From positions 1 to 64,000 of the forward strand of contig JAUHYP010000010.1 of the NCBI GenBank assembly GCA_030426265.1: 64,000 nucleotides of DNA, read 5' to 3'. The translations under genes were made by a program, and so were the position numbers. The DNA is from Gammaproteobacteria bacterium (GTDB lineage Bacteria > Pseudomonadota > Gammaproteobacteria > Xanthomonadales > SZUA-36). The notes beneath the pieces are model-generated. The model did no database searches. It was not told where the DNA came from and saw only the letters and a list, made by a program, of their open reading frames with translations. This document shows, piece after piece, positions 20,128 to 48,859 of this stretch (its first letter is position 1; the number at the start of each line of letters is the position of its first letter).

Positions 20128-20137
20128 GAGCGGGACC

Positions 20138-21154: not shown

Positions 21155-21255
21155 GGTTCGTCCTTCACCCCGCTTGGACCGGAGGGACAATCACGCTACG
21201 GTGAGCGGGTGTGTGGCGACCGTTGGCCGTCGGTTGACGATTCTCCACCGGATGT

Positions 21256-21269
21256 GACAACGTTGTCAA
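21256..21269. promoter_or_regulatory. Perfect 14-bp palindrome, LacI-type operator
   Basis: TGACAACGTTGTCA is fully self-complementary with the central CG step usual in LacI/GalR operators. It lies 101 bp upstream of the LacI gene on the minus strand and 69 bp upstream of the gluconate-dehydrogenase-type small subunit on the plus strand. On the minus strand the adjoining bases make TTGACA, with GAGAAT 18 bases on, a possible promoter. Same outer TGACA/TGTCA arms as the site at 35846. Confidence 0.65.
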
Positions 21270-21338
21270 TCCAACGAAGAGCATACCGGGAGTGGCTCGC
21301 ACCCGGTGGACAGACCAAGAACAGGACATTCCAGCCCC

Positions 21339-21974: not shown

Positions 21975-21982
21975 CGGCGGCG

Positions 21983-23716: not shown

Positions 23717-23752
23717 GGTAATTCGACGAATGACGAAACAAGGAGAAGTGGC

Positions 23753-24925: not shown

Positions 24926-24937
24926 GGCGTGTCCGCC

Positions 24938-25819
24938 TTATCCCAGGGCGCGGTCGAGATTCAGGCGGCCGATCGCGGCGGTCCGGAAGGGCCGGGCCGG
25001 GTTGTCGTGTTCGACGAAGGGATGGCGGATGTGCTCCGCTTCGGGACTGGCGAGCAGCCCTGCGAAATCGATCACGCCGGTGCCCACGTCCACCATCTCA
25101 CCTTCGGCGCTCATGTCCTTGATGTGGGCCATGGTGAAGCGTTCCGGCGCCCAGGACAGCACCTCGGTGATGTCGAAGCCGGCCTGCCGGGCCCAGAAGA
25201 AATCGAGTTCGAAATCCACCAGGGCGGGGTCGGTCTCCTCCAGCAGGAGGCGCAGGGGCAGGACGCCGTCGACGGTTTCGAACTCGAAGCCGTGGTTGTG
25301 GTAGCCGGTCTTCAGGCCGGCGGCACGGGCCAGTTCACCGGCGCGGTTCAGGACGTCGGCCCAGCCGCGGTACTGGTCCGCGGTGCGGCGGTCGTCCTCA
25401 CCCAGCCAGGGCATGACCAGGTACTCGTGGCCCAGGACGGCCGCCTGTTCGACCAGCGATTCCGGATTGTCCCGCAGCTCGTGCGGGCCCACGTGGGCGG
25501 CGGGCGCGGCGAGGCCGAGCTCGTCCAGCCAGGCACGCAGTTGTGCCGGCGCCACGCCCTGGTAGCCGGCGAATTCCACGGCCTTGAAACCCATGGCGGC
25601 CAGGGCCGTGAGCGTCGCCAGCGGGTCCTCGGCCATCGATTCGCGCACGGTGTAGAGCTGGATGCCCGCCACCCGTTTGGGTGCGGCAGCCTGGAGGGTG
25701 CGCCCCAGGGGTGCGGTGGCCACGGTGGCGACAGCGCCCATCACGGCGGTCGCGGCGGTGGCGGTGAACAGGCCGCGGCGGGTCATGCCGTGGCGCGAAG
25801 GGTTGTCGGTCGGTTTCAA
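24938..25819 (-). CDS. Sugar phosphate isomerase/epimerase family protein with Tat leader
   Basis: A 293-residue xylose-isomerase-like TIM barrel. Metal- and substrate-site segments are KAVEFAGYQG, AHVGPHELRD, YHNHGFEFE, FELDFFWARQAG and MAHIKDM, as in keto-sugar 3-dehydratases and inosose isomerases. A twin-arginine leader is present (MTRRGLFTATAATAVMGAV). The start is probably TTG at 25819, because AAGGAG stands 8 bases ahead of it; the ATG eleven codons later also keeps the leader. Often paired with Gfo/Idh/MocA enzymes, as here (convergent neighbour), in turnover of 3-keto-glycosides. Function in detail unassigned. Confidence 0.8.
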   Translation of the reverse strand: MKPTDNPSRHGMTRRGLFTATAATAVMGAVATVATAPLGRTLQAAAPKRVAGIQLYTVRESMAEDPLATLTALAAMGFKAVEFAGYQGVAPAQLRAWLDELGLAAPAAHVGPHELRDNPESLVEQAAVLGHEYLVMPWLGEDDRRTADQYRGWADVLNRAGELARAAGLKTGYHNHGFEFETVDGVLPLRLLLEETDPALVDFELDFFWARQAGFDITEVLSWAPERFTMAHIKDMSAEGEMVDVGTGVIDFAGLLASPEAEHIRHPFVEHDNPARPFRTAAIGRLNLDRALG

Positions 25820-25871
25820 GCCGGGTTCTCCTTGTGAGCGCGGCGACATCATAACAACGGGAGAAGCACGC

Positions 25872-27854
25872 ATGAGCATGAACCGTGAAAACAGAAGGGC
25901 CGTGATCGTTCGAGGGCTGGTTGCCCTGGCGAGTTTCGTGGCCTGCGCCCATGCCATGGGCCAGGACCTGGAGGATTCGCCGCTGGCTCTGGGCGCCGGC
26001 CTGGGCGAGCACATGGTGGTCCAGCGCGATGCACCGGTGAGCCTGCGGGGCACGGCGGTTCCCGGCGAGACACTCGAGGTCCGCCTCGGTGACGTGGCGG
26101 CGGAGGCCACCACGGACGACGCCGGTCGCTGGGCTGTCGAGCTGCCACCCTTTCCCGCCGGTGGTCCCCATGTGCTCGAGGTTCGCGGGGAAGAAGGGCG
26201 CAGCCTGGAAGCCGGCGACGTCCTGGTGGGCGACGTCTTTCTCTGCAGCGGGCAGTCCAACATGGCCTGGCCGGTCTCCGCCAGCAGCGGGGCGCCCTGG
26301 GGTCCGATGGGGCCGGATGCCGGAATTCGCCTGCTCCACGTGAACCGCGCCGCCGCACCGACACCACAGGAGGTTTTCGAGGGAGAGGTTGCCTGGCAGG
26401 TGGCCTCGGCGGAATCCGTGCAGCCCTTCTCCGGCGTGTGCTGGCATTTCGCGCAGGCACTCCGCGAAACCCGACCGGACGTGCCGCTCGGCCTCGTGCA
26501 TTCGTCCTGGGGCGGTTCGCGCATCGAGCCGTGGATTCCCGCCGGGGGACTGGCCGACCTTCCCGCCTACGAGCCGCGGCTCGCCCTGCTGTCGCGCTAT
26601 GCCGCCGATCCGCAACGCGCGCTGGCCGAACACGGCGCCGACTGGGAGGCCTGGTGGCAGGAGCGCAACGAGGACACGCCCTGGAACGAGGCGGGCACCG
26701 ACGCCGAGGGCTGGACGCCGGCGCCATCCCAGCTCGGCAATTGGCAGACCTGGAGCGAGGAGTGGTCGCGATTCACCGGCATGGTCTGGTACCACTCCCG
26801 ATTCGAGCTCGACGATGACCAGGCGGGACAGGACGCCACCCTGGTGCTCGGTCCCGTCGACGAGGTGGACTCGACCTGGATCAACGGACGCTTCATCGCC
26901 AGCCGTTTCGGCTGGGGCGATGTGCGCCGCCATGCCGTGCCCGCCGCGGCCCTGGCGCCCGGCGAGAACACGCTGGTGGTCAACGTCTACAACAGCTGGG
27001 GCGCCGGAGGTCTGACCGGCCCTGCGGAGGAGATTCGGCTGGAACTCGCCAACGGCGATTCGGTCCCGGTGTCCGCCGCCTGGCGCATGCGCGCCGTGGC
27101 GCCCGATCACCCGGCTCCGAATCAGCCGCCCTGGGAGTCGATCGGCGGCCTGACAGGCCTGCACAACGCGATGGTCGCCCCGCTGGGCCCGCGGGCCCTG
27201 GCGGGTGCGTTGTGGTACCAGGGTGAGTCGAACACCGGCGAAGGCCGGAGATACGCGCCCCTGTTGTCCCGGCTGACCGCCGCCTGGCGGCGCCAGTTCG
27301 GCGCTGAATTGCCGGTGCTGGTGATCCAGCTCCCGGGATTCGGACAACCCCAGGTCGCGCCCGTGGACTCCGGATGGGCGCAGCTGCGGGACGGGCAGCG
27401 CCAGGTCGCCGCCCGTGAAGCGCACACGGCCCTGGTCGTGACCCTGGACCTGGGCGACAACATCGACCTGCACCCGCCCCACAAGGCGGAAGTGGGACGG
27501 CGCGCGGCGAACGTGTGGCAGTCGCTGCACGGCGAGGCGCAAGGCGTGGTGGATGGCATCACGCCGGTCGACGCCCGGGCCGAAGACGGCTCGGTGGTGG
27601 TGCGTTTCGCCCCGGGGCAGGGCCCCTTCACGCCGCTGGGCGGGGCGATGGCGCACGGTTTCGAACTGTGCGCTGCGGACGGCGCCGATTGTCGTTTCGT
27701 CCCCGGAACCGTCGACGGTGACGCCGTGGTGCTCGCTGCCGGCGACGGTCCCGCTGGACGCGTGCGCCATTGCTGGGCGGACGCGCCGTCCTGCAACCTC
27801 GTGGGGATGGGAAACCTGCCGGTCAGCAGCTTCGAACTGCCGGTCAGCCCCTGA
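25872..27854 (+). CDS. CE20-like sialate O-acetylesterase-family esterase, exported
   Basis: A 660-residue SGNH hydrolase with signal peptide ending near MGQD. Block I is LCSGQSNMAW with nucleophile Ser129; block III is LWYQGESNTGE; the Asp/His pair sits in DLGDNIDLHPPHK. Between the halves lies a jelly-roll insert (about residues 305-375, FELDDDQAGQDATLVLGPVD and NTLVVNVYNSWG), the arrangement known for Xanthomonas xyloglucan/xylan acetylesterase CE20. GGGAGAAG precedes the ATG. The final 11 bp overlap the end of the convergent halogenase gene. It probably removes acetyl groups from hemicellulose side chains so that the local glycosidases can act. No sialic-acid genes are nearby. Confidence 0.82.
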   Translation: MSMNRENRRAVIVRGLVALASFVACAHAMGQDLEDSPLALGAGLGEHMVVQRDAPVSLRGTAVPGETLEVRLGDVAAEATTDDAGRWAVELPPFPAGGPHVLEVRGEEGRSLEAGDVLVGDVFLCSGQSNMAWPVSASSGAPWGPMGPDAGIRLLHVNRAAAPTPQEVFEGEVAWQVASAESVQPFSGVCWHFAQALRETRPDVPLGLVHSSWGGSRIEPWIPAGGLADLPAYEPRLALLSRYAADPQRALAEHGADWEAWWQERNEDTPWNEAGTDAEGWTPAPSQLGNWQTWSEEWSRFTGMVWYHSRFELDDDQAGQDATLVLGPVDEVDSTWINGRFIASRFGWGDVRRHAVPAAALAPGENTLVVNVYNSWGAGGLTGPAEEIRLELANGDSVPVSAAWRMRAVAPDHPAPNQPPWESIGGLTGLHNAMVAPLGPRALAGALWYQGESNTGEGRRYAPLLSRLTAAWRRQFGAELPVLVIQLPGFGQPQVAPVDSGWAQLRDGQRQVAAREAHTALVVTLDLGDNIDLHPPHKAEVGRRAANVWQSLHGEAQGVVDGITPVDARAEDGSVVVRFAPGQGPFTPLGGAMAHGFELCAADGADCRFVPGTVDGDAVVLAAGDGPAGRVRHCWADAPSCNLVGMGNLPVSSFELPVSP

Positions 27855-29370
27855 AGGCTTCCGGCGGCGCCGCCGGGCAACGGTCCCGGAGGGTGTCCGC
27901 GTGCGCGGGCAGCCGCGCCGCGGTCTCGGCAATGCGGGTGCGCATGCGTTCCAGGACATCCGCCAGCTGGGCGTCGGTCATGGACCGGGTGATCTCGTCC
28001 GCGCGCCGCGGCGTGATGCCCTGGCCCAGCATGACCGCCACCCAGCTGGTGACCGAGAACAGGTCGTCGTCGTAGCGGAAACAGGCGCCGCCGCTTTCGA
28101 ACAGCGCCAGCTTGCGGGCCAGGCCCTCCGGCGCTTCCAGTGAGCGGCAATGCCGCCAGAAATCCGTGTCGTCGCGCTCCGTGGCGCGGTAGTGCAGCAC
28201 CAGGAAATCCCGCACCTGCTCGTAGCCATCGGCCATGAGCCGGTTGTACTCGGCGATTTCCGCCGGCGGGAAGTCGCGGTCCGGGAACAGCGCCAGCAGC
28301 TTGGCGATCCCCGTCTGCACGAGATGGATGGCGGTGGATTCCAGCGGCTCCAGGAAGCCGGCCGCCAGGCCCAGGGCCACGCAATTCCTTTCCCAGGCGC
28401 GCGCCCGGCGGCCGCTGGTGAAGGACAATTGGCGCGGGTCGCCCAGGGCGTCATCGCCCAGGCTGTCCATCAGTTGCGCGGCGGCCTTGTCGTCATCCAG
28501 AAAGGCGCTGGCGTAGACCCGGCCGTTGCCGGTGCGGTGTTGCAGCGGGATGCGCCACTGCCATCCGGCCCCGTGGGCGGTGGCGCGGGTGAAGGGCGGC
28601 AGGGGGTCCAGGCGCTTCGAGGCCGCGGTCACGGCCCGGTCGCAGGGCAGCCAGTGGCTCCAGTCCTCGAAGGGTACCCCCAGGGCGTCCCCCAGCAGCA
28701 GCGAGCGGAAACCGCTGCAGTCGATGAACAGGTCCCCCTCGATGGCCGCACCCGAGGCCAGTTCCACGGCCTCGATCAGGCCGGTCTCACCGTGCAGGCG
28801 CACCGTGCGCACCGTTCCCTCGGTGCGTCGCACGCCGAGCTGCTCGGCGTAACGGCGCAGGTAGGCGGCCACCAGGGTGGCGTCGAAATGGTAGGCCCAG
28901 GCCCAGTGTTCGGCGGGAAATCCCGCGTCGCGCAGGGGGCCGAAGCGGGCCTGTCGCGCGGCCACGGTGGTCAGGGACCACTCATCGATGGACGCCATTC
29001 CCGGCTGACCGAGTGCCTGTCGCAACCAGAACTGGTGAAAGGGCACGCCCTCGATGTCAGCGCCGAAGGCGCCGAAGGGGTGCATGTAGCGGTGGCCCCG
29101 GCGGGTCCAGTCCACGAACTCGATGCCGATCTTGTAGCTGCCGTTGGTCCTGGCCAGGAAGTCGTGCTCTGGGATGCGCAGCATGTCGAGGAAGCTGCGG
29201 ATCGGGGGGATGGTGGCCTCGCCCACACCCACCGTGCCGATGGCCTCGGATTCGACCAGTTCGATCTGCGTGTGGCCGTTGTCCAGGAATCGGGCCAGCG
29301 CCGCGGCCGCCATCCAGCCGGCGGTCCCGCCGCCGACGATGACGACGCGGCCGATGCGCCGGTCGCTCAC
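27844..29370 (-). CDS. Flavin-dependent tryptophan-halogenase family protein (fourth in operon)
   Basis: A 508-residue PrnA-type halogenase homologue. FAD-binding motif VIVGGGTAGWMAAAAL, VGVGEATIP, the Lys80 of NGSYKIGIEF (equivalent to PrnA Lys79, which handles hypohalous acid) and the W-x-W-x-I-P signature in GWQWRIPLQHR are all intact. It therefore looks catalytically competent, given reduced flavin, chloride or bromide. The native substrate of polysaccharide-locus halogenases is not established. It follows the GH9 gene with an ATGA overlap and is the last gene of the minus-strand operon. No flavin reductase is nearby. Confidence 0.85.
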   Translation of the reverse strand: MSDRRIGRVVIVGGGTAGWMAAAALARFLDNGHTQIELVESEAIGTVGVGEATIPPIRSFLDMLRIPEHDFLARTNGSYKIGIEFVDWTRRGHRYMHPFGAFGADIEGVPFHQFWLRQALGQPGMASIDEWSLTTVAARQARFGPLRDAGFPAEHWAWAYHFDATLVAAYLRRYAEQLGVRRTEGTVRTVRLHGETGLIEAVELASGAAIEGDLFIDCSGFRSLLLGDALGVPFEDWSHWLPCDRAVTAASKRLDPLPPFTRATAHGAGWQWRIPLQHRTGNGRVYASAFLDDDKAAAQLMDSLGDDALGDPRQLSFTSGRRARAWERNCVALGLAAGFLEPLESTAIHLVQTGIAKLLALFPDRDFPPAEIAEYNRLMADGYEQVRDFLVLHYRATERDDTDFWRHCRSLEAPEGLARKLALFESGGACFRYDDDLFSVTSWVAVMLGQGITPRRADEITRSMTDAQLADVLERMRTRIAETAARLPAHADTLRDRCPAAPPEAFRG

Positions 29371-31211
29371 GGCGCCGCCGTCTCCGCCAGCCAGGCCGCC
29401 ACCCAGACCAGGGGCGCGTTCCAGTTGATGGCCACCTCGTTGAGGGCGTAGGACTCGGCATCATCCGCCCAGCACTTCAACGGCGCGCACTGTCCGCGCA
29501 GCTTCTGCGCCACCGGGTCGGCCATGGCGGTGTTGTTGGGCCCGCCGGACAGGGCGCCGGGGTAGGGCGGCGGGTGGCCCTGGTCGTAGGACGGCGCCCA
29601 GAAACGGTGATGCGGGTGTTCCATGGGCCGCTCGCCGTGGCCGGCGATGAAGGAGCGGTCCAGGGGATTGCGCCCGAGCAGGTAGTCCATGACGTCGATC
29701 ACGGTGTCACGGTAGCCGGCGTCCCCGGTGAAGTCGTGGGCCAGGGCCAGCAGCAGGCCGCGATTGAGCAGGTCGCTGTTGGAGCCCCAGGGCCAGCGGT
29801 CCGAACTGCGCGGAATGTGGTAGCCGGTGACCGCCGCCTCGGCGGCGTAGCGGTCCGCGGCCGCCACCAGCATCGCGCGCACGTGGCGGTGTTCGTCCTT
29901 CGGCAGGACGTCCTCCTGCAGCGCCAGGCTCACCAGGCCGAGCGCCGCCGTTCGCGGCCAGGCCGGTTGTTCCATCACGGGTGCGGTGAAGGCCGGGTGT
30001 TCGCGCACGGCGGCTGCGAAGGCATCCTCGCCGGTGGTGGCCAGCAGTTCGGCCGCCGCCCAGAAGAACTCGTCCGAGACGTCGCCGTCGCCGTACATTC
30101 CGCTGCCGCTGAAGCCGGCCACGAAGTACACCTCCGGATTGCGCTGCGCCGCGGCCCAGGCGCGCCGCGCCGCCACCAGGCAGCGCTCGCTGAAGGCCGG
30201 GTCGAGGTCGCGCCAGAGCCGGGCGCCCTGGGCCGCGACGGCCGCTAGGTTGAGCGTCGCCGCCGTGCTCACGGGATAGAGCACCCGTGGCTGCGTGTCC
30301 TCGTGCGGCGCGGTGGGCATCGGCGTCCATTCCTCATCGGCCATCTTGTGGTGGGCCATGCCGGAGGCGTCGATGTCCGTGAACACGAGACCGGGCCCGC
30401 CGCGTTTCACGCCCACGGGCAGCCTGGACGCGGCGCCTTCCGGCGCCTGCATGCGCAACAGGAACTCGAGTTCGAAACGGGCTTCGTCCAGCAGGTCGTT
30501 CACCCCGTTGCCGGCCTCGGGGATGCGTGCGGCGCCGTCCGGGAAGGTGGGTGAGCGGCCGGGAGCGGCCTGGCGTTCCACGAGGTTCTGCAGGGTCCAG
30601 GTGGCGATGCCCCCGTTGACCACGTACTTGCCGTGGTCGCCGGCGTCGTACCAGCCCCCGGTCACGTCCAGTTCGTACTCGCAGCCGGGCCAGTCGTTGC
30701 CGGCCGGGTCCTTGCCCGTGCGGCAGGTGACCACTTCATCGACGTGGGCGGCGGGCCGCGCCCAGGCGTCGCCGCCCGCGTGCAGGGCCTCGATCGGGAC
30801 CCCGGCGCGGTTGTGATAGAAGTAGGCCAGGGCGTCGCGGGCCAGCGCCGGCCAGGGGTTCGGGGCGATGTCGAAGGCATGGCTGTCGCCGCAGGCGCCG
30901 CGCAGCCGGTAGCCCACGCCGGGCGTCGCCAGGGCGGTGAATTCGAGCCGGTGCACGGTCTCGCCGGCCAGGGCGTCGGGGCCGAAGGGCTCGGTGGCTC
31001 CGCTGAAGACGACCGCTCCCTGCGCATCGAGGACCTGGAACGGTGTCGCTTCGCTGGCTTCCAGGGGCATGACGGCGCGCTTCACGGCGCCGGTTTCGAA
31101 GGCGACCTGGTTCAGGCGTACGGGTGCGCCGTCCACCGCGCAGCCGGCGGGACCCTGGGCGCCCGCCTGCGGCGCCCCGGCGAGCAGTGTGAGAACGATG
31201 AGCGCCCTCAT
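29367..31211 (-). CDS. GH9 family glucanase/exo-glucosidase, exported
   Basis: A 614-residue GH9 enzyme with signal peptide (LIVLTLLAGAPQAGAQG). An N-terminal Ig-like module (VRLNQVAFETGAVKRAV...) is followed by the (alpha/alpha)6 barrel: DVTGGWYDAGDHGKYVVNGG carries the catalytic Asp pair, and the C-terminus has the His/Arg region around HPHHRFWAPS and the acid Glu in ESYALNEVAINWNAPL. Substrate would be cellulose, beta-glucan or xyloglucan fragments. The ATG at 31211 overlaps the stop of the upstream halogenase (ATGA); a TTG three codons earlier is less likely. A hydrolase between halogenase genes, all translationally coupled, is striking. Confidence 0.87.
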   Translation of the reverse strand: MRALIVLTLLAGAPQAGAQGPAGCAVDGAPVRLNQVAFETGAVKRAVMPLEASEATPFQVLDAQGAVVFSGATEPFGPDALAGETVHRLEFTALATPGVGYRLRGACGDSHAFDIAPNPWPALARDALAYFYHNRAGVPIEALHAGGDAWARPAAHVDEVVTCRTGKDPAGNDWPGCEYELDVTGGWYDAGDHGKYVVNGGIATWTLQNLVERQAAPGRSPTFPDGAARIPEAGNGVNDLLDEARFELEFLLRMQAPEGAASRLPVGVKRGGPGLVFTDIDASGMAHHKMADEEWTPMPTAPHEDTQPRVLYPVSTAATLNLAAVAAQGARLWRDLDPAFSERCLVAARRAWAAAQRNPEVYFVAGFSGSGMYGDGDVSDEFFWAAAELLATTGEDAFAAAVREHPAFTAPVMEQPAWPRTAALGLVSLALQEDVLPKDEHRHVRAMLVAAADRYAAEAAVTGYHIPRSSDRWPWGSNSDLLNRGLLLALAHDFTGDAGYRDTVIDVMDYLLGRNPLDRSFIAGHGERPMEHPHHRFWAPSYDQGHPPPYPGALSGGPNNTAMADPVAQKLRGQCAPLKCWADDAESYALNEVAINWNAPLVWVAAWLAETAAP

Positions 31212-32707
31212 GCCGCGCAATGCTCCTGGATGAACTGGCGGTGGTCCGGCATGTAATTCGCCGACGCGTGCACCGTGTCGCGGATCTGGCGCAAGCGTTC
31301 ACGGGTTTCCTCCAGGCTGATCATCTCCGCGACCGGGTCGTAGCTGCGTGGACTGCCGCACTGACCGGTCAGCACGGCGAACCAGCTGGTGTCGTTGAAC
31401 AACTCATCGGCCTCGCGAAAGCAGCGGCCGGTGTTGGCATAGACGGCCAGCTTCTCCTTCAGCCGCTCCGGCACGTCCATGGTGCGGCAGTAGTCCCAGA
31501 ACGGCGTGTCGTCCCGCTCGGTGGCGTGGTAGTGAAGGATGAGGAAATCCCGGATCCATTCGGTTTCCTGGAGCATCACGCGGTTGTAACGGTCGCGGTC
31601 CACCCCGGCGAAGGTGCGGTCCGGAAAGTTGGCCAGCAGCCGCGAGATGCCGTTCTGGATCATCCAGATGCTGGTGGACTCCAAGGGCTCCATGAAGCCC
31701 GAGGACAGGCCGATGGCCACCACGTTCTTCTCCCAGTACTTCGTCCGGTGGCCGGTGGTGAAGCGCACCTGCCGGGGCTCGGCCAGGGGCTCGCCGTCGA
31801 GGTTGTCCAGCAGCGTGGCGGTGGCCTCGTCATCGCTGATGTAGTCGCTGCAGTACACGTAGCCGTTGCCGATGCGATGCTGCAGGGGAATGCGCCATTG
31901 CCAGCCGGCGGCGTGGGCGGTGGAACGCGTGTAGGGCGTCCAGGCGTCCACGCTGGCGCAGGGCGCCACCATGGCCCGGTTGCAGGGCAACCAGCGCGAC
32001 CAGTCCACGAAGTCCACGCCCAGGGTTTCGGCGATGAGCAGACCGCGGAAGCCCGAGCAGTCGATGAACAGGTCCCCCTCGATCCGGGCGCCATCCTCCA
32101 GTTCCACCGACTCGACGAAGCCGGATTCGCCGTCCTGGTGCACCTGGACGATGCGCCCTTCGTGGCGCCGCACACCGTGTCCCTCGGCCAGGTCCCGCAG
32201 GTAGAGCGCGTACAGGCCGGCGTCGAAGTGGAAGGCGTAGGCGATCTCCGACAGGGGCGAGTTACCCGCGTCGATGGCGCGCATGAACTTGTTGGACTTC
32301 GCCGCCGTGGCGTTCAGGGAGTAGTCATCCAGGCTGTCGACCTCGCCGAGCTGCTTCAGGCGCTGCCAGTAGGCGTGGAAGCTCAGGCCGTTCATGTTGC
32401 GGCCGTAGCTGCCGAAAGGGTGCATGTAGCGGTGGCCCATCCGGCCCCAGTTCACGAACTCGATGCCGAGCTTGAAGCTGCCCTTGGTGCGGCGGACGAA
32501 CTCGTCCTCGTCGATCTTCAGCATGCGGTTGAAGGTGGCGAGTTGCGGGATGGTCGCCTCGCCTACGCCCACGGTGCCGATGGCGTCGGATTCGACCAGG
32601 GTGATGTCCGCATAGTCGCGTCCGAGCACCTTGCCCAGGGCGGCTGCGGTCATCCAGCCGGCGGTGCCGCCGCCGACGATGACGATGCGCTTGATTCGGG
32701 TTTCCAT
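31208..32707 (-). CDS. Flavin-dependent tryptophan-halogenase family protein (third in operon)
   Basis: A 499-residue halogenase homologue. It has GGGTAGWMTAAAL for FAD, VGVGEATIPQL, Lys79 in TKGSFKLGIEF at exactly the PrnA position, and GWQWRIPLQHR containing W-x-W-x-I-P. The C-terminal half includes GLSSGFMEPLESTSIWMIQ, shared with all functional family members. It starts 7 bp after the degenerate family member and overlaps the GH9 start. Expected activity is flavin-dependent chlorination or bromination of an aromatic (indole-like or phenolic) compound; substrate unknown. Confidence 0.85.
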   Translation of the reverse strand: METRIKRIVIVGGGTAGWMTAAALGKVLGRDYADITLVESDAIGTVGVGEATIPQLATFNRMLKIDEDEFVRRTKGSFKLGIEFVNWGRMGHRYMHPFGSYGRNMNGLSFHAYWQRLKQLGEVDSLDDYSLNATAAKSNKFMRAIDAGNSPLSEIAYAFHFDAGLYALYLRDLAEGHGVRRHEGRIVQVHQDGESGFVESVELEDGARIEGDLFIDCSGFRGLLIAETLGVDFVDWSRWLPCNRAMVAPCASVDAWTPYTRSTAHAAGWQWRIPLQHRIGNGYVYCSDYISDDEATATLLDNLDGEPLAEPRQVRFTTGHRTKYWEKNVVAIGLSSGFMEPLESTSIWMIQNGISRLLANFPDRTFAGVDRDRYNRVMLQETEWIRDFLILHYHATERDDTPFWDYCRTMDVPERLKEKLAVYANTGRCFREADELFNDTSWFAVLTGQCGSPRSYDPVAEMISLEETRERLRQIRDTVHASANYMPDHRQFIQEHCAA

Positions 32708-32714
32708 GTGCCTT

Positions 32715-34295
32715 CTATTTCCTCGCAGTGCGGTCTTCGCCGCGTCCCGGGGGCGCCAGGGACACGGATTCGATGGTGGATTCCAGTTGGCCCTTGGCCA
32801 CCCGCAGGCTGAGCAGCGTGTCCTCGTGCGAGGGCATGGTGCGCAGGGCGCCCAGCATGAAGGTGCGCACCTTCTCGGCATGGCCGGCCAGGGTGTCCAG
32901 GTCCAGTCCGGCCACCAGGGGACCGGCATGGCGCGGCACCAGGCCGTGTTCGTCGAACAGGTTCAGCCAGGCGTCGGCCTCCAGTGGTTCCTCGTCCTCC
33001 AGGGGCACGATGCCGCGGGCTTCGAACACCTCGCGGCGGTGCGCCAGGCCGGGCGTGACGGCGCCCTGTCGCGCGGCATCCCAGAAGGGTTCGCCCTGCC
33101 GGGCGTTGAGCCGGTAATGGGCCAGCACGAAGTCGCGGGCGTGGTCCTGCTCCTCGGCGGCACGGCGATTGAACTCCGTGCGCACGGCCTCACTGCCGCC
33201 CTCGCCGGGCATCAGCTCCAGCAGCCGTTGCAGGGCGGTGCGTGCGAAGTGGAAGGCGCCCGGACCCAGCGGTTCCAGTTGCATGGCCGCCTCGCCGAGG
33301 GCGACGCAGTTCGCGACCCAGGGCTCGACGGCGCGACCGGGGCGGAAGGGTTCGATGGTCAGGCCTTCGAGGCGCTCGGCGCCGGCCGCGTCGCGGACCT
33401 TTAGGTGCACTGATTCGTCGTCGATCTCCGAGGCGTCGAACCAGGCCGACAGCGCGGTGCTGCCGTGGAGGGGCAGGTGCTCGATCACTCCCTGGGCCAT
33501 GGTTTCGAGGTGCCGGTAGGGCGGGGGCGTACCCACGGTGCGGACCCGGGCCTGCAGGCGCCGGTCGCAGGGCAGCAGGCCGGACCAGTCGTCCCGGCGA
33601 TTGGCCTGAAGGCGCGATGCGAGGCGGGCCGCCGGTCCGCTGGCGTCCAGCCACAGTCCCGCTTCCAGCCGGCGGTCCCCGTCCAGGCGCAGGGCCGTCA
33701 CCGCCCCATCGGGCGCCCACTCGATGTCCCGGATCGTGCCCTGTTCCTCCACCACGCCGGCCGCCAGGGCCGACTCACGCAACAGCTTCGCCAGGCCGTG
33801 GGCGTCCGCGTGCAGACCGTGACGGCAGGTGGACAGCACGCTGCCGGGAGCGCGGTCCGGGACCTGGAAGCGGTTCGTCTGCGCGGCAAGGGCCGCCAGC
33901 GAGAAATTGGACAGGCGCATCGGAACGCCGGCGGCGCGCAGTTTCAGCGCGATGGGGTAGAAGGGCACCGGCCCGATGGGGGCGCCGAAGCCGCTGAAGG
34001 GGTTGAACCAGGTCTGCTCCGGGCCCGTCCAGCCCGTCAGGGCGGCGCCGAAAGAGAAGGCGCCCGCGGCCCGGTTGACCAGCGTGGCGTCGTCCAGGCG
34101 CAATGCGTTATGCCAGTCCGTCACCGAGGGATGGAGCGCCACGGCGGGCGAGGAAACAGGGGCATCGGGATCCGTCAGCACCGTCACGGGGCGGCGCGCC
34201 ACGGGCACGGTCCGCGCCATGGCCAGGGCGGCCAGCCAGGCTTCGGGCCCCTCCCCGAGGATGGCGATGGTGAAAGCCTCGACGGGCGCGTTCAT
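32715..34295 (-). CDS. Degenerate tryptophan-halogenase paralogue, probable pseudoenzyme
   Basis: A 526-residue intact frame that aligns by overall layout with its three neighbours (for example LWLDASGPAARLASRLQ, LLPCDRRLQARV, CVALGEAAMQLEPLG, FVLAHYRLNARQGEPFWD). The signatures are eroded. The FAD motif is LGEGPEAWLAA instead of GGGTAGWMAA, the segment with the catalytic Lys reads GAFSFG with Ser81 in its place, and W-x-W-x-I-P has become V-x-E-x-L-P (QGVIEHLPLHGS). There are no stops or frameshifts and ATGA overlap with the upstream gene is kept, so it is maintained as a protein. A structural or regulatory partner of the active halogenases is possible. Confidence 0.75.
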   Translation of the reverse strand: MNAPVEAFTIAILGEGPEAWLAALAMARTVPVARRPVTVLTDPDAPVSSPAVALHPSVTDWHNALRLDDATLVNRAAGAFSFGAALTGWTGPEQTWFNPFSGFGAPIGPVPFYPIALKLRAAGVPMRLSNFSLAALAAQTNRFQVPDRAPGSVLSTCRHGLHADAHGLAKLLRESALAAGVVEEQGTIRDIEWAPDGAVTALRLDGDRRLEAGLWLDASGPAARLASRLQANRRDDWSGLLPCDRRLQARVRTVGTPPPYRHLETMAQGVIEHLPLHGSTALSAWFDASEIDDESVHLKVRDAAGAERLEGLTIEPFRPGRAVEPWVANCVALGEAAMQLEPLGPGAFHFARTALQRLLELMPGEGGSEAVRTEFNRRAAEEQDHARDFVLAHYRLNARQGEPFWDAARQGAVTPGLAHRREVFEARGIVPLEDEEPLEADAWLNLFDEHGLVPRHAGPLVAGLDLDTLAGHAEKVRTFMLGALRTMPSHEDTLLSLRVAKGQLESTIESVSLAPPGRGEDRTARK

Positions 34296-35794
34296 GCCGC
34301 CGCGCCCCGGGGACGCGCCAGCAGGCCGTCGAGGTACTCGGCATGGGGCGGCATGGCCTCCACGGCCTCGCCGATGCCCTGGTCCAGCCGTTCCAGGTGT
34401 GTTTTCAGCCGCTCCGCGTCCAGGCCCACGGCCGCGGGGTCCGGTGCGGCCGGCGTCACCCGCTGGCCGAAATAGACCGCGTACCAGCTGGCGTCCAGGA
34501 ACATGCCATGGCGATAGGGTGTCACCACGCCCCGTTCGCGGAACAGGGCCATGCGCGCACGCAGGCTGTCGGGGATGTCGAGGTGCTTCATGTGGCGCCA
34601 GAACGCCGTGTCTTCCCGCTCGGTGGCATGGTAGTGCAGCACCAGGAAATCGCGGATGCGTTCGTACTCCAGGTCCATGATGCGGTTGAATTCCGCGGCG
34701 CAGACCGGGTCGAAGTCCGGATCCGGAAAGTGCTCCACCAGGTAGCCGATGGCGAGCTGGATGAGGTGGATGCTGGTCGACTCGAGCGGCTCCAGGAAGC
34801 CCGAGGCCAGGCCGATGGCGACCACGTTGCGGTGCCACTGGCGCCGGCGCTTGCCGGTCACGAAGCGAAGCTGGCGTGGCGCGTCCGAAGGGGGGTGTTC
34901 CATCTGCGCCAGCAGGGCGTCCTGCGCCGCATCGTCGTCGATGAAGTCGCTGGCGTAGACGTGGCCGTTGCCCACCCGGTGCTGCAGGGGAATGCGCCAG
35001 GCCCATCCGGCCTCGAGGGCCGTGGCCCGGGTGTAGGGCGGCGGCGGGCCGTCGGCGGGGCAGGGCGCCGCCCAGGCGCGGTCGCAGGGCAGCCAGTGCT
35101 GCCAGTTCTCGTAGCCCGTCTCCAGCGCCTGCTCGATCAGCAGGCCGCGAAAGCCCGAGCAGTCGATGAACAGGTCGGCCTCCAGCCGGCGGCCGTCCTC
35201 CAGCGTCACGGCGGTGACAAATCCGCTTTCGCCGTCCAGTTCGGTGTCCGTGATGCGGCCCTCGACACGGCGCACCCCGCGGCGCTCGGCATGCGCGCGG
35301 AGAAAGGCGGCGTAACGCAGCGCGTCGAACTGGTAGGCATAGGAGTAGGTGGAGCCGATGGCTTCCGGATCCGGGTCGGGCGGGCGGAAGCGGTCGGCCG
35401 CCGCCGCCCGCACCGGCAGGGAGTAGCGGGGCAGGTCGCCGGCCAGGCCCAGGCGGCGGGCCTGCAGCCAGGCCTGGTGAAACGGTACGCCGTCCAGGGG
35501 CTCGCCGTAGGCCCCGAAGGGATGCAGGTAGGCGTCGCCCTTGCGCGCCCAGTCGCGGAACTCGATGCCCAGCTTGAAGGTGGCGCCGGTGCGCGCGATG
35601 AAGTCCGCCTCATCGAAGCCGAGCCGCTGGTTGAAGAAGCGGATGTGCGGCACCGTGGCCTCGCCCACGCCGACGGTTCCGATCTGTTCGGATTCCACCA
35701 GGGTGATGTCGATGGTGCGTGGCGGGAGCAGGCGGGACAGCGCCGCGGCGCTCATCCATCCGGCGGTGCCGCCGCCGACAATCAGGACGTTCAT
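34292..35794 (-). CDS. Flavin-dependent tryptophan-halogenase family protein (first in operon)
   Basis: A 500-residue halogenase homologue with intact motifs: G7-x-G-x2-G12 for FAD, VGVGEATVPHI, Lys74 in TGATFKLGIEF, and W264-A-W266-R-I268-P269. It is the promoter-proximal gene of the operon halogenase / degenerate halogenase / halogenase / GH9 / halogenase. AGAGAGG stands before the ATG at 35794; an in-frame Met 19 codons upstream lies within the operator region and was not chosen. It diverges from the TonB receptor across a region with three operator-like palindromes. Confidence 0.87.
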   Translation of the reverse strand: MNVLIVGGGTAGWMSAAALSRLLPPRTIDITLVESEQIGTVGVGEATVPHIRFFNQRLGFDEADFIARTGATFKLGIEFRDWARKGDAYLHPFGAYGEPLDGVPFHQAWLQARRLGLAGDLPRYSLPVRAAAADRFRPPDPDPEAIGSTYSYAYQFDALRYAAFLRAHAERRGVRRVEGRITDTELDGESGFVTAVTLEDGRRLEADLFIDCSGFRGLLIEQALETGYENWQHWLPCDRAWAAPCPADGPPPPYTRATALEAGWAWRIPLQHRVGNGHVYASDFIDDDAAQDALLAQMEHPPSDAPRQLRFVTGKRRRQWHRNVVAIGLASGFLEPLESTSIHLIQLAIGYLVEHFPDPDFDPVCAAEFNRIMDLEYERIRDFLVLHYHATEREDTAFWRHMKHLDIPDSLRARMALFRERGVVTPYRHGMFLDASWYAVYFGQRVTPAAPDPAAVGLDAERLKTHLERLDQGIGEAVEAMPPHAEYLDGLLARPRGAAA

Positions 35795-35823
35795 GCGAGC
35801 CTCTCTTGTTTTGGTCGTCCCCA

Positions 35824-35837
35824 TGACAGCGCTGTGT
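35824..35837. promoter_or_regulatory. LacI-type operator-like site O1
   Basis: TGACAGCGCTGTGT contains the perfect 10-bp palindrome ACAGCGCTGT. Its centre is 22 bp, about two helical turns, from the next site. Located in the divergent region of the halogenase operon and TonB receptor. Confidence 0.5.
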
Positions 35838-35844
35838 CCATTTC

Positions 35845-35873
35845 TTGACATCGCTGTCAGGCGTGCATTATAA
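35845..35873 (+). promoter_or_regulatory. Sigma70-type promoter of the TonB receptor gene
   Basis: TTGACA (35845-35850), a 17-bp spacer and TTATAA (35868-35873) form a near-consensus promoter reading toward the receptor, giving a leader of about 170 bases. The reverse strand of 35867-35872 reads TATAAT, so the same A+T-rich box could serve the halogenase operon. Confidence 0.6.
35846..35859. promoter_or_regulatory. LacI-type operator-like site O2 over the -35 box
   Basis: TGACATCGCTGTCA has perfect outer arms TGACA/TGTCA. It covers the -35 hexamer of the receptor promoter, so bound repressor would block polymerase. It differs from the palindrome at 21256 only in the centre. Confidence 0.6.
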
Positions 35874-35880
35874 CGACAGA

Positions 35881-35894
35881 TGTTAGCGCTAACC
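35881..35894. promoter_or_regulatory. LacI-type operator-like site O3, perfect 12-bp core
   Basis: TGTTAGCGCTAACC includes the perfect palindrome GTTAGCGCTAAC (35882-35893). It sits at the expected start point of the receptor transcript and over the -35 region of a possible minus-strand promoter. Its arms differ from O1 and O2, so a second LacI protein may bind here. Confidence 0.55.
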
Positions 35895-36048
35895 GGAGCG
35901 CTGGCAAAACGGCTCGGACCAGACCCGGAAAGGGCGGTCGAAAAGAATGTGGGGCACGGCTCTGTCGGCTTCGTCGTTCATCGAACCCCGAAAATAACAA
36001 GATGTGCGAGCCGAAAACCACCCCAATAAAACGCACAGGGTACGCTCA

Positions 36049-39000
36049 ATGTCACACGCTCAGGCTCTCGATCGATTCAAGCGCAACAAGGTCAGCTCCG
36101 CCATCGCGGCCGGCCTTTCCCTCGTCGTTCTCGGCGCATTGCCCTTCGACAAGTACGCCCACGCCCAGGACAGCACCTCGGTGGCGGACGACGACGAAGA
36201 TGATGAAGCAGACGCCCTCCTCGAGGAGGTGATCGTCACCGGCTTCAAGAGTTCACTGCAGTCCTCCCAGGACATCAAGCAGATGTCCAACGTGGTGGTC
36301 GACTCCATCACGGCCGAGGACATCGGCGCACTGCCCGACCAGTCGGTCACCGAGGCCCTGCAGCGCGTCCCGGGCGTGGCGATCAACCGCTTCGCCGCCG
36401 GCCGCGACCCCGACCACTTCTCGGTGGAAGGCGCCGGTGTGGTGGTGCGCGGACTGACCTACGTCCGCTCGGAAATCAACGGGCGCGACTCGTTCACGGC
36501 CAACAACGGTCGCGGCCTGAGCTTCGCGGACGTGTCCGCCGAACTGCTCGGCGGCGTGGACGTGTTCAAGAGCCTCTCGGCGGACAAGATCGAGGGGGGT
36601 ATCGCGGGCACGGTGAACCTGCGCACCCGCAAACCCTTCGACCAGGATGACAACTACTACGGTTTCTCGGCCGAAGCGCAGTACAGCGACTTCATCGAGG
36701 AAATCTCGCCTTCCGTCTCCGGTCTCGCCAGCTGGCGCTGGGACACAGGCGCCGGCGAGTTCGGTCTCCTCGTCAGCGGCGTGTATGCCCAGACGCAGTC
36801 ACGCGCGGATCGCTTCCAGGTGTCGAATTTCGCGGAACGCACGCTGTACTCCAACGGCGACGTGATTCCGTCGGAAGGCGCCACGCCGGTGCAGGAAGTC
36901 CTCTTCCCCCGCGGCGCGGTCATGGGCACCCAGGAGTTCGACCGCGAGCGCTACGGCTTCTCCGCGGCGCTGCAGTGGCGCAGCGAGGATGAATCGCTCG
37001 AGGCCACGGCCGAATTCCTGCGTTCCGACTCGCGCGAAACCTGGACGGAACGCGCCATGGAAATCGCCACCGACGTGGTCACCGACCAGGGCGACGCCCG
37101 AGCGGTGCCCGGCACCATGTTCGGGTTCACGGATTCGGGCGTGTTCGACAGCGGCTACATCACCGGCCCGACCGGCTGGCGCGACGACCAGTGGAGCGGT
37201 GACCCGCGCACCCCGACTTTCGGCCTGCAGAGCAACAACATCCAGCGGCAGGTCGATCAGCAGTTCGTGACCGACGACGCCAGCATCAACCTCAAGTGGT
37301 ACGTCACCGACGACTGGGCGCTGAATTTCGACTATCAACACGTGGATTCCAAGGTGGACAACCTGGACGCCGGCATCTGGGGGTCGAGCTACCAGGACCT
37401 GTACATGGACCTGAACGGCAACGACCTGCCCTTCGTTCAGTTCGTGCCCATCCAGCCCTGTACCGGTCCGACCAGCAACGAGTGCCCGACCTACTGGACC
37501 CAGCCGGATGCGAGCTTCATCGATCCGCGCAATACCTTCTACCGCGCCGCCATGGACCACATCGAGGAAAGTGAAGGCACCTCCGACGCGTTCCGAATCG
37601 ATGCCTCCAAGACCTTCTCGGACAGCGACTGGGTGGAAAGCATCCAGTTCGGCGTGCGCTACGCCGACCGCGACCAGACGGCGCGCTTCTCGACCTACAA
37701 CTGGGGCGTGCTCAGCGAGATCTGGGGTTCCGGCGGACCAGTGTGGTTCGACGAGGATGTCGTCAACCAGGGCGCTGGCGTCCAGCCCTTCTATTTCGAC
37801 AACTTCTTCGACGGCCGGGTCGCCAACCCACTGGGTGGTGACGGGCGGCTGTTCTACGCGGGCGACATCACCGGCGATTACGAGGCTTATTACAACTACG
37901 CCCTGGCCGTTGCCAACACCTGGCGCCCGGACAACCCGGACAACTGGATGCCGCTGCACATGCGACCGGACGTCGTCGCGGGCACACCATTCCTGGTGGG
38001 TGAGATCAACCCGGTCCAGGAACAGAACCAGGCGGTCTATTTCACACTCAATTTCGACCATGAACTGGACAACGGCTGGAACCTGGGCGGCAACATCGGC
38101 GTGCGGTACACCGACACGAATCGCGAGGCCCAGGGCTACCAGCAGTTCCCGAACACCGGCTTCCAGACCGAGGAGGAATGTACGGCCCCGCTGGATCCAG
38201 GCCAGACCCGGACGGAGTTCTGCCAGCTGACGATGGAAGAGCGCCAGTCCGCGAGGAACTTCGCCAACGGCGCGACCACGCCGGTGACGTCCGACCTCGA
38301 CTACGACTACTGGCTCCCGTCCGTCAACGTACTGCTGCGCACCAGCGACGAATTGCAGTTCCGCGCCTCCTACTTCAAGGGCGTGGCGCCGCCGGACTTC
38401 GGCCTGACGCGTCTGTACGAGAACGTCACCCTGGACACCGCGGACCAGAGCATCATCGAGAACGGCGGGGTGATCGGGCGCTTCAGCGCGGGCAACCCCT
38501 ACCTGCTGCCGGTGGAGTCGAACAACTTCGACCTGACCGCCGAGTGGTACTTCGCCGACGTGGGCCAGTTGACCTTCGCGCTGTTCTACAAGGAGCTGGA
38601 CAACATCCGCACCAACAGCGTCGAGCGCATGGCCTACACCAACAACGGCGAGACCTTCGAGGCCATCGTGACCACGGCCGTGAACTCGCCCGATACTGGC
38701 AAGATCAAGGGTTTCGAAATCGCCTACCAGCAGACCTACGATTTCTTCGATGGCTGGCTGAGTGGTTTCGGCATCCAGGCCAACTACACCTACGTCGATT
38801 CCAGCAACGTACCGCAGAGCACGCTGTCGGAGACCGACCCGGACGTGGCGGCCGGCAACCAGTCGACGGTGGACATCAGCCGACTGCCGCTGGAGGGCCT
38901 GTCGAAGCACACCTTCAACATCACGCCCTTCTACGAGTACGGCGACTGGTCCGCGCGACTGGCCTATTCCTGGCGTGACGAGTTCCTGCTCACCATCCGA

Positions 39001-39228
39001 GACGTGATCGTGCCGTTCCAGCCGATCTACAACGAGGCCACGGGCCAGCTGGACGGGTCGGTGTTCTACTCGATCAACGACAACTTCCGCATCGGTGTGC
39101 AGGCGGTGAACCTGACCGGGGAGGTCATCAGGACCTCGGCGGTGGTCAACGACGACCTCTTGCAGGCACCGCGCAGCTGGTACGTGAACGACCGGCGCTA
39201 CAGCCTGATCCTCAGGGGCACCTTCTGA
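36049..39228 (+). CDS. TonB-dependent receptor, Xanthomonas/Caulobacter type
   Basis: A 1059-residue outer-membrane receptor. It has a signal peptide (about 43 residues, IAAGLSLVVLGALPFDKYAHA), an acidic linker DDDEDDEADALLEEV, and the TonB-box/plug beginning EEVIVTGF, then ITAEDIGALPDQSVTEALQRVPGVAI split here for brevity, VVRGLTYVRSEINGRD and IEGGIAGTVNLRTRKPFD. The beta-barrel ends with aromatic RYSLILRGTF. This subtype imports oligosaccharides in Xanthomonas and Caulobacter. The ATG at 36049 was preferred to a GTG at 36004 that lacks a ribosome site. Flanking halogenases, LacI and glycosidases suggest uptake of hemicellulose oligosaccharides, possibly with aromatic decoration. A strong hairpin follows. 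Confidence 0.92.
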   Translation: MSHAQALDRFKRNKVSSAIAAGLSLVVLGALPFDKYAHAQDSTSVADDDEDDEADALLEEVIVTGFKSSLQSSQDIKQMSNVVVDSITAEDIGALPDQSVTEALQRVPGVAINRFAAGRDPDHFSVEGAGVVVRGLTYVRSEINGRDSFTANNGRGLSFADVSAELLGGVDVFKSLSADKIEGGIAGTVNLRTRKPFDQDDNYYGFSAEAQYSDFIEEISPSVSGLASWRWDTGAGEFGLLVSGVYAQTQSRADRFQVSNFAERTLYSNGDVIPSEGATPVQEVLFPRGAVMGTQEFDRERYGFSAALQWRSEDESLEATAEFLRSDSRETWTERAMEIATDVVTDQGDARAVPGTMFGFTDSGVFDSGYITGPTGWRDDQWSGDPRTPTFGLQSNNIQRQVDQQFVTDDASINLKWYVTDDWALNFDYQHVDSKVDNLDAGIWGSSYQDLYMDLNGNDLPFVQFVPIQPCTGPTSNECPTYWTQPDASFIDPRNTFYRAAMDHIEESEGTSDAFRIDASKTFSDSDWVESIQFGVRYADRDQTARFSTYNWGVLSEIWGSGGPVWFDEDVVNQGAGVQPFYFDNFFDGRVANPLGGDGRLFYAGDITGDYEAYYNYALAVANTWRPDNPDNWMPLHMRPDVVAGTPFLVGEINPVQEQNQAVYFTLNFDHELDNGWNLGGNIGVRYTDTNREAQGYQQFPNTGFQTEEECTAPLDPGQTRTEFCQLTMEERQSARNFANGATTPVTSDLDYDYWLPSVNVLLRTSDELQFRASYFKGVAPPDFGLTRLYENVTLDTADQSIIENGGVIGRFSAGNPYLLPVESNNFDLTAEWYFADVGQLTFALFYKELDNIRTNSVERMAYTNNGETFEAIVTTAVNSPDTGKIKGFEIAYQQTYDFFDGWLSGFGIQANYTYVDSSNVPQSTLSETDPDVAAGNQSTVDISRLPLEGLSKHTFNITPFYEYGDWSARLAYSWRDEFLLTIRDVIVPFQPIYNEATGQLDGSVFYSINDNFRIGVQAVNLTGEVIRTSAVVNDDLLQAPRSWYVNDRRYSLILRGTF

Positions 39229-39264
39229 GCTGAGGCGGCGCTTCGCGCACCACCCGTGACAAGG

Positions 39265-39288
39265 CAACGCCGGAGCGATCCGGCGTTG
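39265..39288 (+). terminator. Hairpin after TonB receptor
   Basis: A perfect 10-bp stem (CAACGCCGGA / TCCGGCGTTG) with a GCGA tetraloop starts 37 bp after the receptor stop. There is no clean T tract, only TCGTCTCC, so it may terminate weakly or protect the mRNA end. Confidence 0.6.
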
Positions 39289-39345
39289 TCGTCTCCGGGC
39301 TCCGGGAAGGGTCCGCGGGGGGTGTCTTGCCCGGAAACCAATGAA

Positions 39346-40404: not shown

Positions 40405-40408
40405 TCAC

Positions 40409-44284: not shown

Positions 44285-44296
44285 CGGGGGCCGGCC

Positions 44297-44953: not shown

Positions 44954-45028
44954 AGCCAATTCCCTGTAGCATAGATGGCCCGATTCACGGGCGTCTCGGC
45001 ACGGCTCGCCGAGAACTCAGGGCCATTC

Positions 45029-46636: not shown

Positions 46637-46647
46637 AGGTCGATCCC

Positions 46648-47346: not shown

Positions 47347-47349
47347 TCG

Positions 47350-48855: not shown

Positions 48856-48859
48856 CGGC

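Follow-up and report, generated by a model that had tools for sequence, protein, structure and literature searches.

A predicted pseudo-halogenase recurs in multi-halogenase operons beside one clade of TonB-dependent receptors

Why should a locus for the use of plant sugars carry four halogenase-family genes, one of which has lost its catalytic residues? The question is raised by a 64,000-nucleotide stretch of gammaproteobacterial DNA (GenBank assembly GCA_030426265.1, contig JAUHYP010000010.1, positions 1 to 64,000; hereafter the window), in which four genes of the tryptophan-halogenase family (Hal1 to Hal4) and a glycoside hydrolase family 9 (GH9) glucanase lie tightly packed on the minus strand in the order Hal1-Hal2-Hal3-GH9-Hal4, divergent to a TonB-dependent receptor; open reading frames (ORFs), strands and outer coordinates were checked. 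Related genomes carry a recurring order of predicted intact, pseudo-, intact (and sometimes a further intact) halogenase genes beside one TonB receptor clade, in both alpha- and gammaproteobacteria. Judged from its aligned sequences, the pseudo-halogenase family keeps the halogenase scaffold and does without the flavin adenine dinucleotide (FAD) strap, the catalytic Lys/Glu pair and neighboring active-site residues. Our best explanation, which we hold to be evenly poised between right and wrong, is a LacI-controlled, multi-subunit halogenase system with a non-catalytic subunit, which would act on an aromatic substrate tied to the receptor clade. The operon and receptor consist of:

34292..35794, minus strand: Hal1, a predicted intact BrvH-like flavin-dependent halogenase, operon position 1 (PF04820, 640 bits; K93, E357, GxGxxG and WxWxIP kept; in the position-1 clade)
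32715..34295, minus strand: Hal2, a predicted pseudo-halogenase, operon position 2 (PF04820, 278 bits; structural model)
31208..32707, minus strand: Hal3, a predicted intact halogenase (PF04820, 641 bits; motifs kept; tree placement)
29367..31211, minus strand: GH9 glucanase with a CelD_N domain (PF00759, 301 bits; PF02927, 61 bits)
27844..29370, minus strand: Hal4, a predicted intact halogenase (PF04820, 609 bits; motifs kept; tree placement)
36049..39228, plus strand: TonB-dependent receptor of the TonB-Xanth-Caul type (TIGR01782, 720 bits; plug and barrel by Pfam)

Hal1 and Hal2 overlap by 4 bp (34292-34295), Hal2 and Hal3 are 7 bp apart, and 4-bp overlaps join Hal3 to GH9 (ATGA, 31208-31211) and GH9 to Hal4 (GTGA, 29367-29370). 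An earlier note on this DNA had described this layout, and Pfam matches, coordinates and junctions agree with it. The likely start of Hal1 is the ATG at 35794, a start codon kept in a second species of the same genus (G002); the longest ORF extends to 35851 and would collide with a promoter-like element discussed below. The longest receptor ORF starts at 36004, and its ATG at 36049 is kept in G002. The receptor matches TIGR01782 over its full length (positions 1-868 of 868), well above the curated cut-off of 310 bits.

Hal1, Hal3 and Hal4 match PF04820 (Trp_halogenase) at 609-641 bits against a cut-off of 21. In a motif check all three retain the FAD-binding GxGxxG, the catalytic Lys, the catalytic Glu and W-x-W-x-I-P, which bears out the earlier note's statement that the FAD motif, catalytic Lys and W-x-W-x-I-P persist in three of the halogenases; all are lost in Hal2. 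The roles of the catalytic Lys and Glu and of the W-x-W-x-I-P residues were worked out in PrnA and RebH. Among solved structures, Hal1 is closest to a Pseudoalteromonas enzyme (9luq), BrvH and Xcc4156 (517, 462 and 461 bits), and by motif and clade Hal1, Hal3 and Hal4 are flavin-dependent halogenases of the BrvH/Xcc type, predicted to halogenate aromatic compounds. In the halogenase tree, Hal3 clusters with genes that stand fourth, and in some cases third, in related operons; the tree neighbors of Hal4 mostly stand third. The gene order therefore differs here, with GH9 between the two.

Hal2 carries Ser at the place of K93, Gly at that of E357 and V-E-P in place of W-W-P. Its WxWxIP motif is gone and, unlike in Hal1, Hal3 and Hal4, its FAD motif is not intact, which leaves it outside the catalytic halogenases as defined by the Lys/Glu pair and WxWxIP. 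The halogenase fold itself is modeled in full (predicted local distance difference test score, pLDDT, 91.2), and the best Foldseek match of the model is BrvH (6frl), with template modeling (TM) scores of 0.90/0.96.

Genes of this kind recur in named genomes, which we scanned with an alignment of intact enzymes. The best 80 loci of at least 592 matching stretches, which are not a random sample, were collected with flanks of up to 10 kb that often end with the contig, and contain 93 halogenase clusters; genes in these loci are ORF picks, and neighbors were labeled by matches of at least 50 bits to single reference proteins. Thirty-five clusters hold three or more halogenases. With A for a gene in which Lys, Glu and both Trp are present and d for one in which at least one of these is lost, they comprise 17 AdAA, 15 AdA and one each of AAdAA, AAd and AAAAA. 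The pseudo-halogenase is the second gene in 32 of the 35 operons, in alpha- and gammaproteobacteria alike, and 33 of the 35 were found by a search seeded solely with intact enzymes. Carriers include, by record title, Sphingomonas, Caulobacter, Asticcacaulis, Maricaulis, Oceanicaulis, Erythrobacter, Parvularcula, Aliiglaciecola, Cellvibrio and Steroidobacteraceae, among others. In one further record, titled Arthrobacter sp. TPD3018 (locus L200), operon and receptor group tightly with Sphingomonas, and the actinomycete title is probably wrong.

Both Lys and Glu are missing from 18 of the 32 degenerate second genes. Across 40 position-2 proteins (percentages exclude gapped cells, which leaves 24-40 letters per column), the scaffold residues W339 (100%), N342 (97%), W418 (94%) and W456 (95%) are kept, and K93 (13% kept), E357 (14%), W285 (13%), V62, L348 and F352 (0%) are lost; these last six are all at 100% in the 92 active neighbors. 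The full set of changed positions takes in most of residues 57-65, K93, W285, 294-296, L348, G351, F352 and 357-359, which are 95-100% kept in the active enzymes, and includes the residues of the FAD strap as well as the catalytic ones. In 11 pairs of operons that have members in common, two of them with a synonymous divergence (dS) near 2, the ratio of nonsynonymous to synonymous divergence (dN/dS) of the position-2 gene is 0.19-0.41 in ten pairs and saturated in the eleventh, against 0.04-0.30 for position 1 in the same 11 pairs. The pseudo-halogenase is thus under purifying selection, weaker than that on its position-1 neighbor.

Shortened pseudo-halogenases of 344-368 aa, which match only parts of the family profile in those scanned, are kept in three Erythrobacter-type genomes and one Sphingorhabdus:

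L124:10317-11351, strand not listed: shortened pseudo-halogenase
L132:11524-12570, strand not listed: shortened pseudo-halogenase
L149:9274-10311, strand not listed: shortened pseudo-halogenase
L144:11225-12331, strand not listed: shortened pseudo-halogenase

In two other loci (L049:7140-12290 and L147:2256-13016), a halogenase and a degenerate halogenase lie close to an S9 peptidase of the prolyl-oligopeptidase type, and no receptor match occurs within 8 kb.

The same data bear on whether Hal2 is simply a decaying duplicate without function. Decay would account for a position-2 dN that is 1.5 to 5.4 times the position-1 dN in the same pairs and for catalytic residues lost in differing ways, but it sits badly with a degenerate gene that stands at one position across classes, retains its scaffold residues, has a dN/dS well under 1 in all but the saturated pair and is itself kept in shortened form. 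On dN/dS and position we held mere decay unlikely, and overall we consider it very improbable.

What, then, does the operon travel with? In the window genome and 30 relatives, 64 strong PF04820 matches fall into 44 loci, 27 of which lie within 6 kb of a TIGR01782 receptor; 1.1 were expected from the density of listed receptors, a figure that is somewhat low because in several genomes no more than 21 receptor candidates were scored. The count takes PF04820 places of at least 194 bits, weaker rows being left out, and 92 listed receptor places, 88 above the cut-off and four below it, including a contig-cut receptor beside a halogenase on contig C62 of the window genome; other weak or second fragments were left out. 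Among the 93 clusters from named genomes, a receptor lies within 1 kb of 53 and within 5 kb of 64 (66 if matches below 100 bits are admitted), and among the clusters with three or more halogenases it lies within 2 kb of 34 of the 35. The earlier note had called halogenases next to TonB receptors known from relatives of Xanthomonas and Caulobacter; the genomes support the linkage, but in the literature we found no paper that describes it, and PMC11337851, in the portion available, has both words in unrelated passages.

The linkage has a phylogenetic side. All 33 placeable receptors of multi-halogenase operons fall in one clade of 42 rows (support 98), which also holds seven rows labeled single, one of them a duplicate of the G002 receptor, and two unlinked rows; a neighboring receptor clade of nine has no adjacent halogenase. 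All 40 position-1 genes fall in one clade of 47 rows (support 93). Over 28 loci, the distances among receptor, position-1 and position-2 proteins correlate with Mantel r of 0.81, 0.80 and 0.86 (0 of 2000 permutations each), and the three travel together as one unit. In 34 of the 48 clusters with two or more halogenases, a 4-bp overlap joins the first gene to the second.

In the relatives' genomes the linked receptors form three main clades and two separate rows: the window's clade, a clade accompanied by DUF6445, SapC and Cupin_8, and a clade accompanied by GH13 or pullulanase genes (a receptor on contig C43 of the window genome is counted as unlinked here although its 4.2-kb contig ends soon after it). 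The second type is seen in L054:7552-14712, L067, L070, L078 and others as receptor, DUF6445, a second halogenase type, SapC, Cupin_8 and a BrvH-like halogenase, with parts missing or unlabeled in some; two families of this module have no known function. In L058:7858-14009, a halogenase directly follows a receptor of another architecture (CarboxypepD_reg and OMP_b-brl_4) and precedes a putative glucoamylase.

Within the genus, G002 has the order GH94-MFS-GH3-LacI-GFO-SASA, Hal4, GH9, Hal3, Hal2, Hal1, receptor, LacI, GH67, SSF, which is the same as in the window on the cello-oligosaccharide side except for the GMC gene, placed on the opposite side in G002. The two share the multi-halogenase pattern with a degenerate second gene, and their Hal2 proteins are 56% and their receptors 89% identical; the G002 operon is split over two DNA pieces and stands outside the 35-operon count.

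Does the sugar context reveal the substrate? Genes for xylan, arabinan and cello-oligosaccharides surround the operon and receptor in the window, all labeled by Pfam:

39256..40404, plus strand: LacI-family regulator
40325..42565, plus strand: GH67 alpha-glucuronidase
42617..55283, plus strand: pentose/arabinan block (SSF symporter, HAD, FGGY kinase, class II aldolase, AraA, GH43, MFS, GH43, GH127)
13670..27854, no single strand given: cello-oligosaccharide side (GH94, MFS, GH3, LacI, GMC oxidoreductase, GFO/IDH/MocA, xylose-isomerase-like TIM barrel, SASA esterase)

With receptor, regulator, glycoside hydrolases and transporter together, as in a carbohydrate utilization locus containing a TonB-dependent receptor (CUT locus) or a polysaccharide utilization locus, this is a plant hemicellulose and cello-oligosaccharide utilization locus with a TonB receptor. 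The gene between GFO and the SASA esterase is the minus-strand frame 24938-26524 (xylose-isomerase-like TIM barrel, PF01261, the match starting about 305 aa into the ORF) and not the plus-strand ORF 24929-25837. Farther off, at 56908-62459, type I restriction genes HsdM and HsdS are followed by a helix-turn-helix ORF just below the cut-off and a Fic-domain protein, with a third-position GC of 0.70-0.82 where measured; this is perhaps a mobile island.

GH9 lies near 8 of the 33 related multi-halogenase operons from named genomes, directly behind the halogenases in L200 and behind a Cupin_8 gene that follows them in L154 and L168. It is a local guest, in this genus between the third and fourth halogenases, and not the common factor of the halogenase operons. 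The earlier note had named a lack of conserved linkage in related genomes, together with a lack of induction, as grounds for refutation; the linkage half of this is passed, since halogenases, GH9 and receptor recur in one order in G002, the halogenase-receptor link is general, and GH9 lies near the 8 operons just named. Genes for GH9, GH10, GH67 or SASA lie near 12 of the 33 operons. GH13 or pullulanase genes lie near none of the 33. They do lie near 13 of the 30 clusters in which a single or paired halogenase is linked to a receptor (9 of 25 loci); 29 of these 30 have receptor matches of at least 100 bits and at least one rests on a weak match (L179, 38 bits). Related halogenases also have as neighbors either a citrate-type transporter, an amidohydrolase, AcrB and Cupin_8, or SapC/Cupin_8. 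In a clustering of neighbors (ORFs of at least 70 aa), Cupin_8, LacI, GH10, GH3 and GH9 were commonest, Cupin_8 being the top other family at 18 of 37 pieces (the 35 operons and the two G002 pieces), and neither a recurrent small peptide gene nor a new partner emerged. A family of about 200 aa (201 aa) without a Pfam match lies near 5 of the 37 pieces, e.g., L122:19001-19606.

The earlier note had taken GH9 as a pointer to a ferulate- or lignin-like aromatic group, and in its wider form this idea has the halogenases act on ferulate-, lignin- or phenol-type groups imported with plant cell-wall oligosaccharides. The window locus is clearly one for plant hemicellulose, and the 12 operons with xylan- or glucan-type neighbors fit as well. 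The window also holds an alpha/beta hydrolase (11382-12356) at 26.7 bits, just below the BD-FAE cut-off of 26.8, and a Rieske ring-hydroxylase (10140-11345). On contig C49 of the window genome (L051:1-9859), another halogenase stands between a Cupin_8 gene and a peroxidase plus glucuronoyl esterase, with a receptor 5 kb away, and L130 carries a glucuronoyl-esterase-like gene. However, the esterase and Rieske genes are 15-18 kb from the operon, and related halogenases sit beside GH13 genes or in the loci with citrate-type transporter, amidohydrolase and AcrB neighbors. Moreover, the two would work in separate compartments: by eye, GH9 has an apparent signal peptide from the ATG at 31211, and the halogenases open straight into the FAD fold. 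The GH9 argument of the earlier note is not supported by these observations, and we consider a plant-phenol substrate quite unlikely.

A second possibility is that the halogenases make a small halogenated indole or phenol, released during feeding as a weapon against competitors or as a signal. The available parts of two reports show BrvH and three Xanthomonas relatives halogenating indole compounds and not free tryptophan (PMC7336383; PMC5945002), several paralogs could yield several products, and an AcrB-type pump is present in two loci. Yet no biosynthetic-cluster family is found among the labeled neighbor families present in at least 5 of 37 pieces, and indole turnover was low, the authors themselves doubting that indole is the natural substrate, according to the part of the report at hand (PMC5945002). 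We regard this possibility as unlikely, if less so than the plant phenols.

Two elements lie between the divergent Hal1 and receptor genes:

35845..35874, plus strand: promoter-like TTGACA-18-TATAAC directed at the receptor (read by eye; kept in G002)
35881..35894, no strand: LacI-type operator-like palindrome TGTTAGCGCTAACC (identical in G002)

The palindrome starts 6 bp downstream of the promoter-like element; a promoter scan that requires T at the sixth base of the second hexamer does not list TATAAC. The palindrome has no other match in the window at up to two mismatches (0.01 expected), and we take it to resemble the LacI-type XylR operator of Caulobacter. Six of 32 multi-halogenase and 3 of 30 single loci have similar cores no more than 300 nt from the start of the receptor (0.009 expected per region), so most loci do without this site. 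We infer that a LacI-type repressor at this predicted operator may control receptor and halogenases jointly.

The supply of reduced flavin is less plain. The earlier note reported no flavin reductase in the window, and none of the 43 window ORFs scanned with Pfam matches PF01613; nor is there a match in the whole window genome or in five genus relatives, these six genomes carrying 1-10 PF04820 matches each. FMN_red and FAD_binding_6 proteins are present in the window genome and could serve, so the absence of PF01613 does not exclude activity.

Put together, the proposal runs as follows. Before entry of the cognate oligosaccharide, receptor and halogenases would be silenced by a LacI-type protein bound to the palindrome in the 0.25-kb gap between the divergent genes. 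The products of the overlapping Hal1 and Hal2 frames would form a mixed cytoplasmic complex in which Hal2 is a non-catalytic subunit with a docking, lid or allosteric role; with a general reductase supplying reduced FAD, the intact enzymes would add halogen to an electron-rich aromatic group. Their substrate would be common to the receptor clade and not to one polysaccharide, with GH9, GH67, GH43, GH127 and GH3 carrying out ordinary xylan, arabinan and glucan breakdown alongside. Given the breadth of loci, the simplest reading to cover them is a substrate tied to the receptor system and handled by a mixed complex with the pseudo-halogenase, and we somewhat favor an aromatic group on a peptide or protein, or one bound to the envelope, over a plant phenol in free form.

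Several points weigh against this proposal. Complex formation, halogenation and induction are predictions from genomic data. The degenerate second genes are not uniform: Lys is retained in 5 of the 32 and Glu in 5, four cannot be aligned at the Lys and/or Glu place, and five match the halogenase profile weakly (48-102 bits). The basal tree position of the position-2 proteins may reflect long-branch attraction, as the tool warned, and bacterial operons often have 4-bp overlaps. Near the receptor start, 26 of the 32 multi-halogenase loci lack the palindrome core, and PF01613 is absent from the whole window genome (97.7% complete) when 13 of 14 control genomes have one. A nearby receptor of the tested kind is lacking at 17 of 44 loci and 29 of 93 clusters. 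Even with weak matches admitted, 27 clusters have no receptor within 5 kb, and at least 16 of these are flanked by more than 5 kb of DNA on each side; strong as it is, the link is therefore not universal. Conversely, 151 genomes of the order hold 13 close receptors, with that of the window counted in; four have a halogenase within 1.5 kb and nine have none, so the receptor can do without one there. In the receptors themselves, the 33 linked and 11 unlinked members of the window's clade are not told apart by any Trp, Tyr or His column, the largest gaps being at W392 and Y988 (0.91 vs. 0.64), nor is any such column near-universal in linked yet rare in unlinked receptors across the three clades. 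Trp content is ambiguous, being higher in linked receptors across clades (1.74-2.10 vs. 1.59%) and lower within the window's clade (1.65 vs. 1.97%).

These receptor comparisons bear most directly on the idea of a protein substrate, either the receptor or another protein of the outer membrane or periplasm, whose aromatic side chains the flavin enzymes and Cupin_8 (JmjC-type) proteins would modify before export. JmjC-type hydroxylases often act on proteins, the related flavin enzymes QhpG and LodB act on protein residues, and both the TonB receptor, as the partner common to xylan, starch and SapC-type loci, and the frequency of Cupin_8 would fit. Against it stand the lack of a diagnostic Trp, Tyr or His, with one Phe (F598) that does differ (0.94 linked vs. 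0.27 unlinked in the window's clade, where several non-aromatic columns separate as well), the nine close receptors without a neighboring halogenase, and NCBIfam matches far below cut-off: the window halogenases reach 20-39 bits with the QhpG model (cut-off 240), and with the LodB model Hal4 is the sole match (24 bits against 400). We view a protein substrate as a doubtful possibility, though a better one than a secreted small molecule. The receptor residues 598 (Phe), 726 and 740 (Cys), in longest-ORF numbering, are found in 0.94, 0.82 and 0.79 of linked and 0.27, 0.18 and 0.18 of unlinked receptors of the window's clade.

A bolder version of the proposal joins the two, with a hetero-oligomer in which the pseudo-halogenase is obligatory for docking a large substrate, in a sugar-switched modification system for the outer membrane, where aromatic residues on a protein associated with the receptor would be halogenated or hydroxylated; we rate it no higher than the plant-phenol idea, that is, improbable. 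A conserved non-catalytic partner in operons of the BrvH/Xanthomonas-type clade offers a testable reason for the low turnover reported for BrvH; should it prove necessary, some enzymes described as sluggish may have been assayed as incomplete complexes. The receptor link shows where to seek the substrate.

How does the system compare with those already described? PrnA, RebH and PyrH, which belong to natural-product clusters with a flavin reductase, share the fold and catalytic Lys/Glu with Hal1, Hal3 and Hal4, but Hal1 matches them at about 268-304 bits, far below its three nearest relatives. Much closer is BrvH of Brevundimonas BAL3 (6frl), the second-best sequence match of Hal1, with the motifs of Hal1, Hal3 and Hal4. 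It is 49-53% identical to its nearest enzymes in the collected loci and the best fold match even for Hal2, and brvH, too, has an adjoining second halogenase gene (PMC5945002). In the available text of that report, BrvH was assayed alone, on free indole, with low activity, and neither TonB nor an inactive partner is mentioned (PMC5945002). Xcc4156 of Xanthomonas campestris (6y1w) is of the same clade; the accessible part of its report mentions neither a pseudo-halogenase nor a receptor, TonB being absent from that text, and states that the native substrate of the BrvH/Xanthomonas-type clade is unknown (PMC7336383), as is implied for BrvH in the portion seen of PMC5945002, in line with the earlier note, which had called the natural substrate unsettled. 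CUT loci with TonB receptors resemble the window in combining a receptor with sugar-utilization genes, the window likewise having a regulator and transporters, but halogenases are not mentioned in the part of the report available (PMC1790865). A description of a pseudo-halogenase fixed at operon position 2 did not turn up in the literature covered, which leaves out most subscription journals. BrvH-clade halogenases and CUT loci are already known; the conserved position-2 pseudo-halogenase appears to be the new element.

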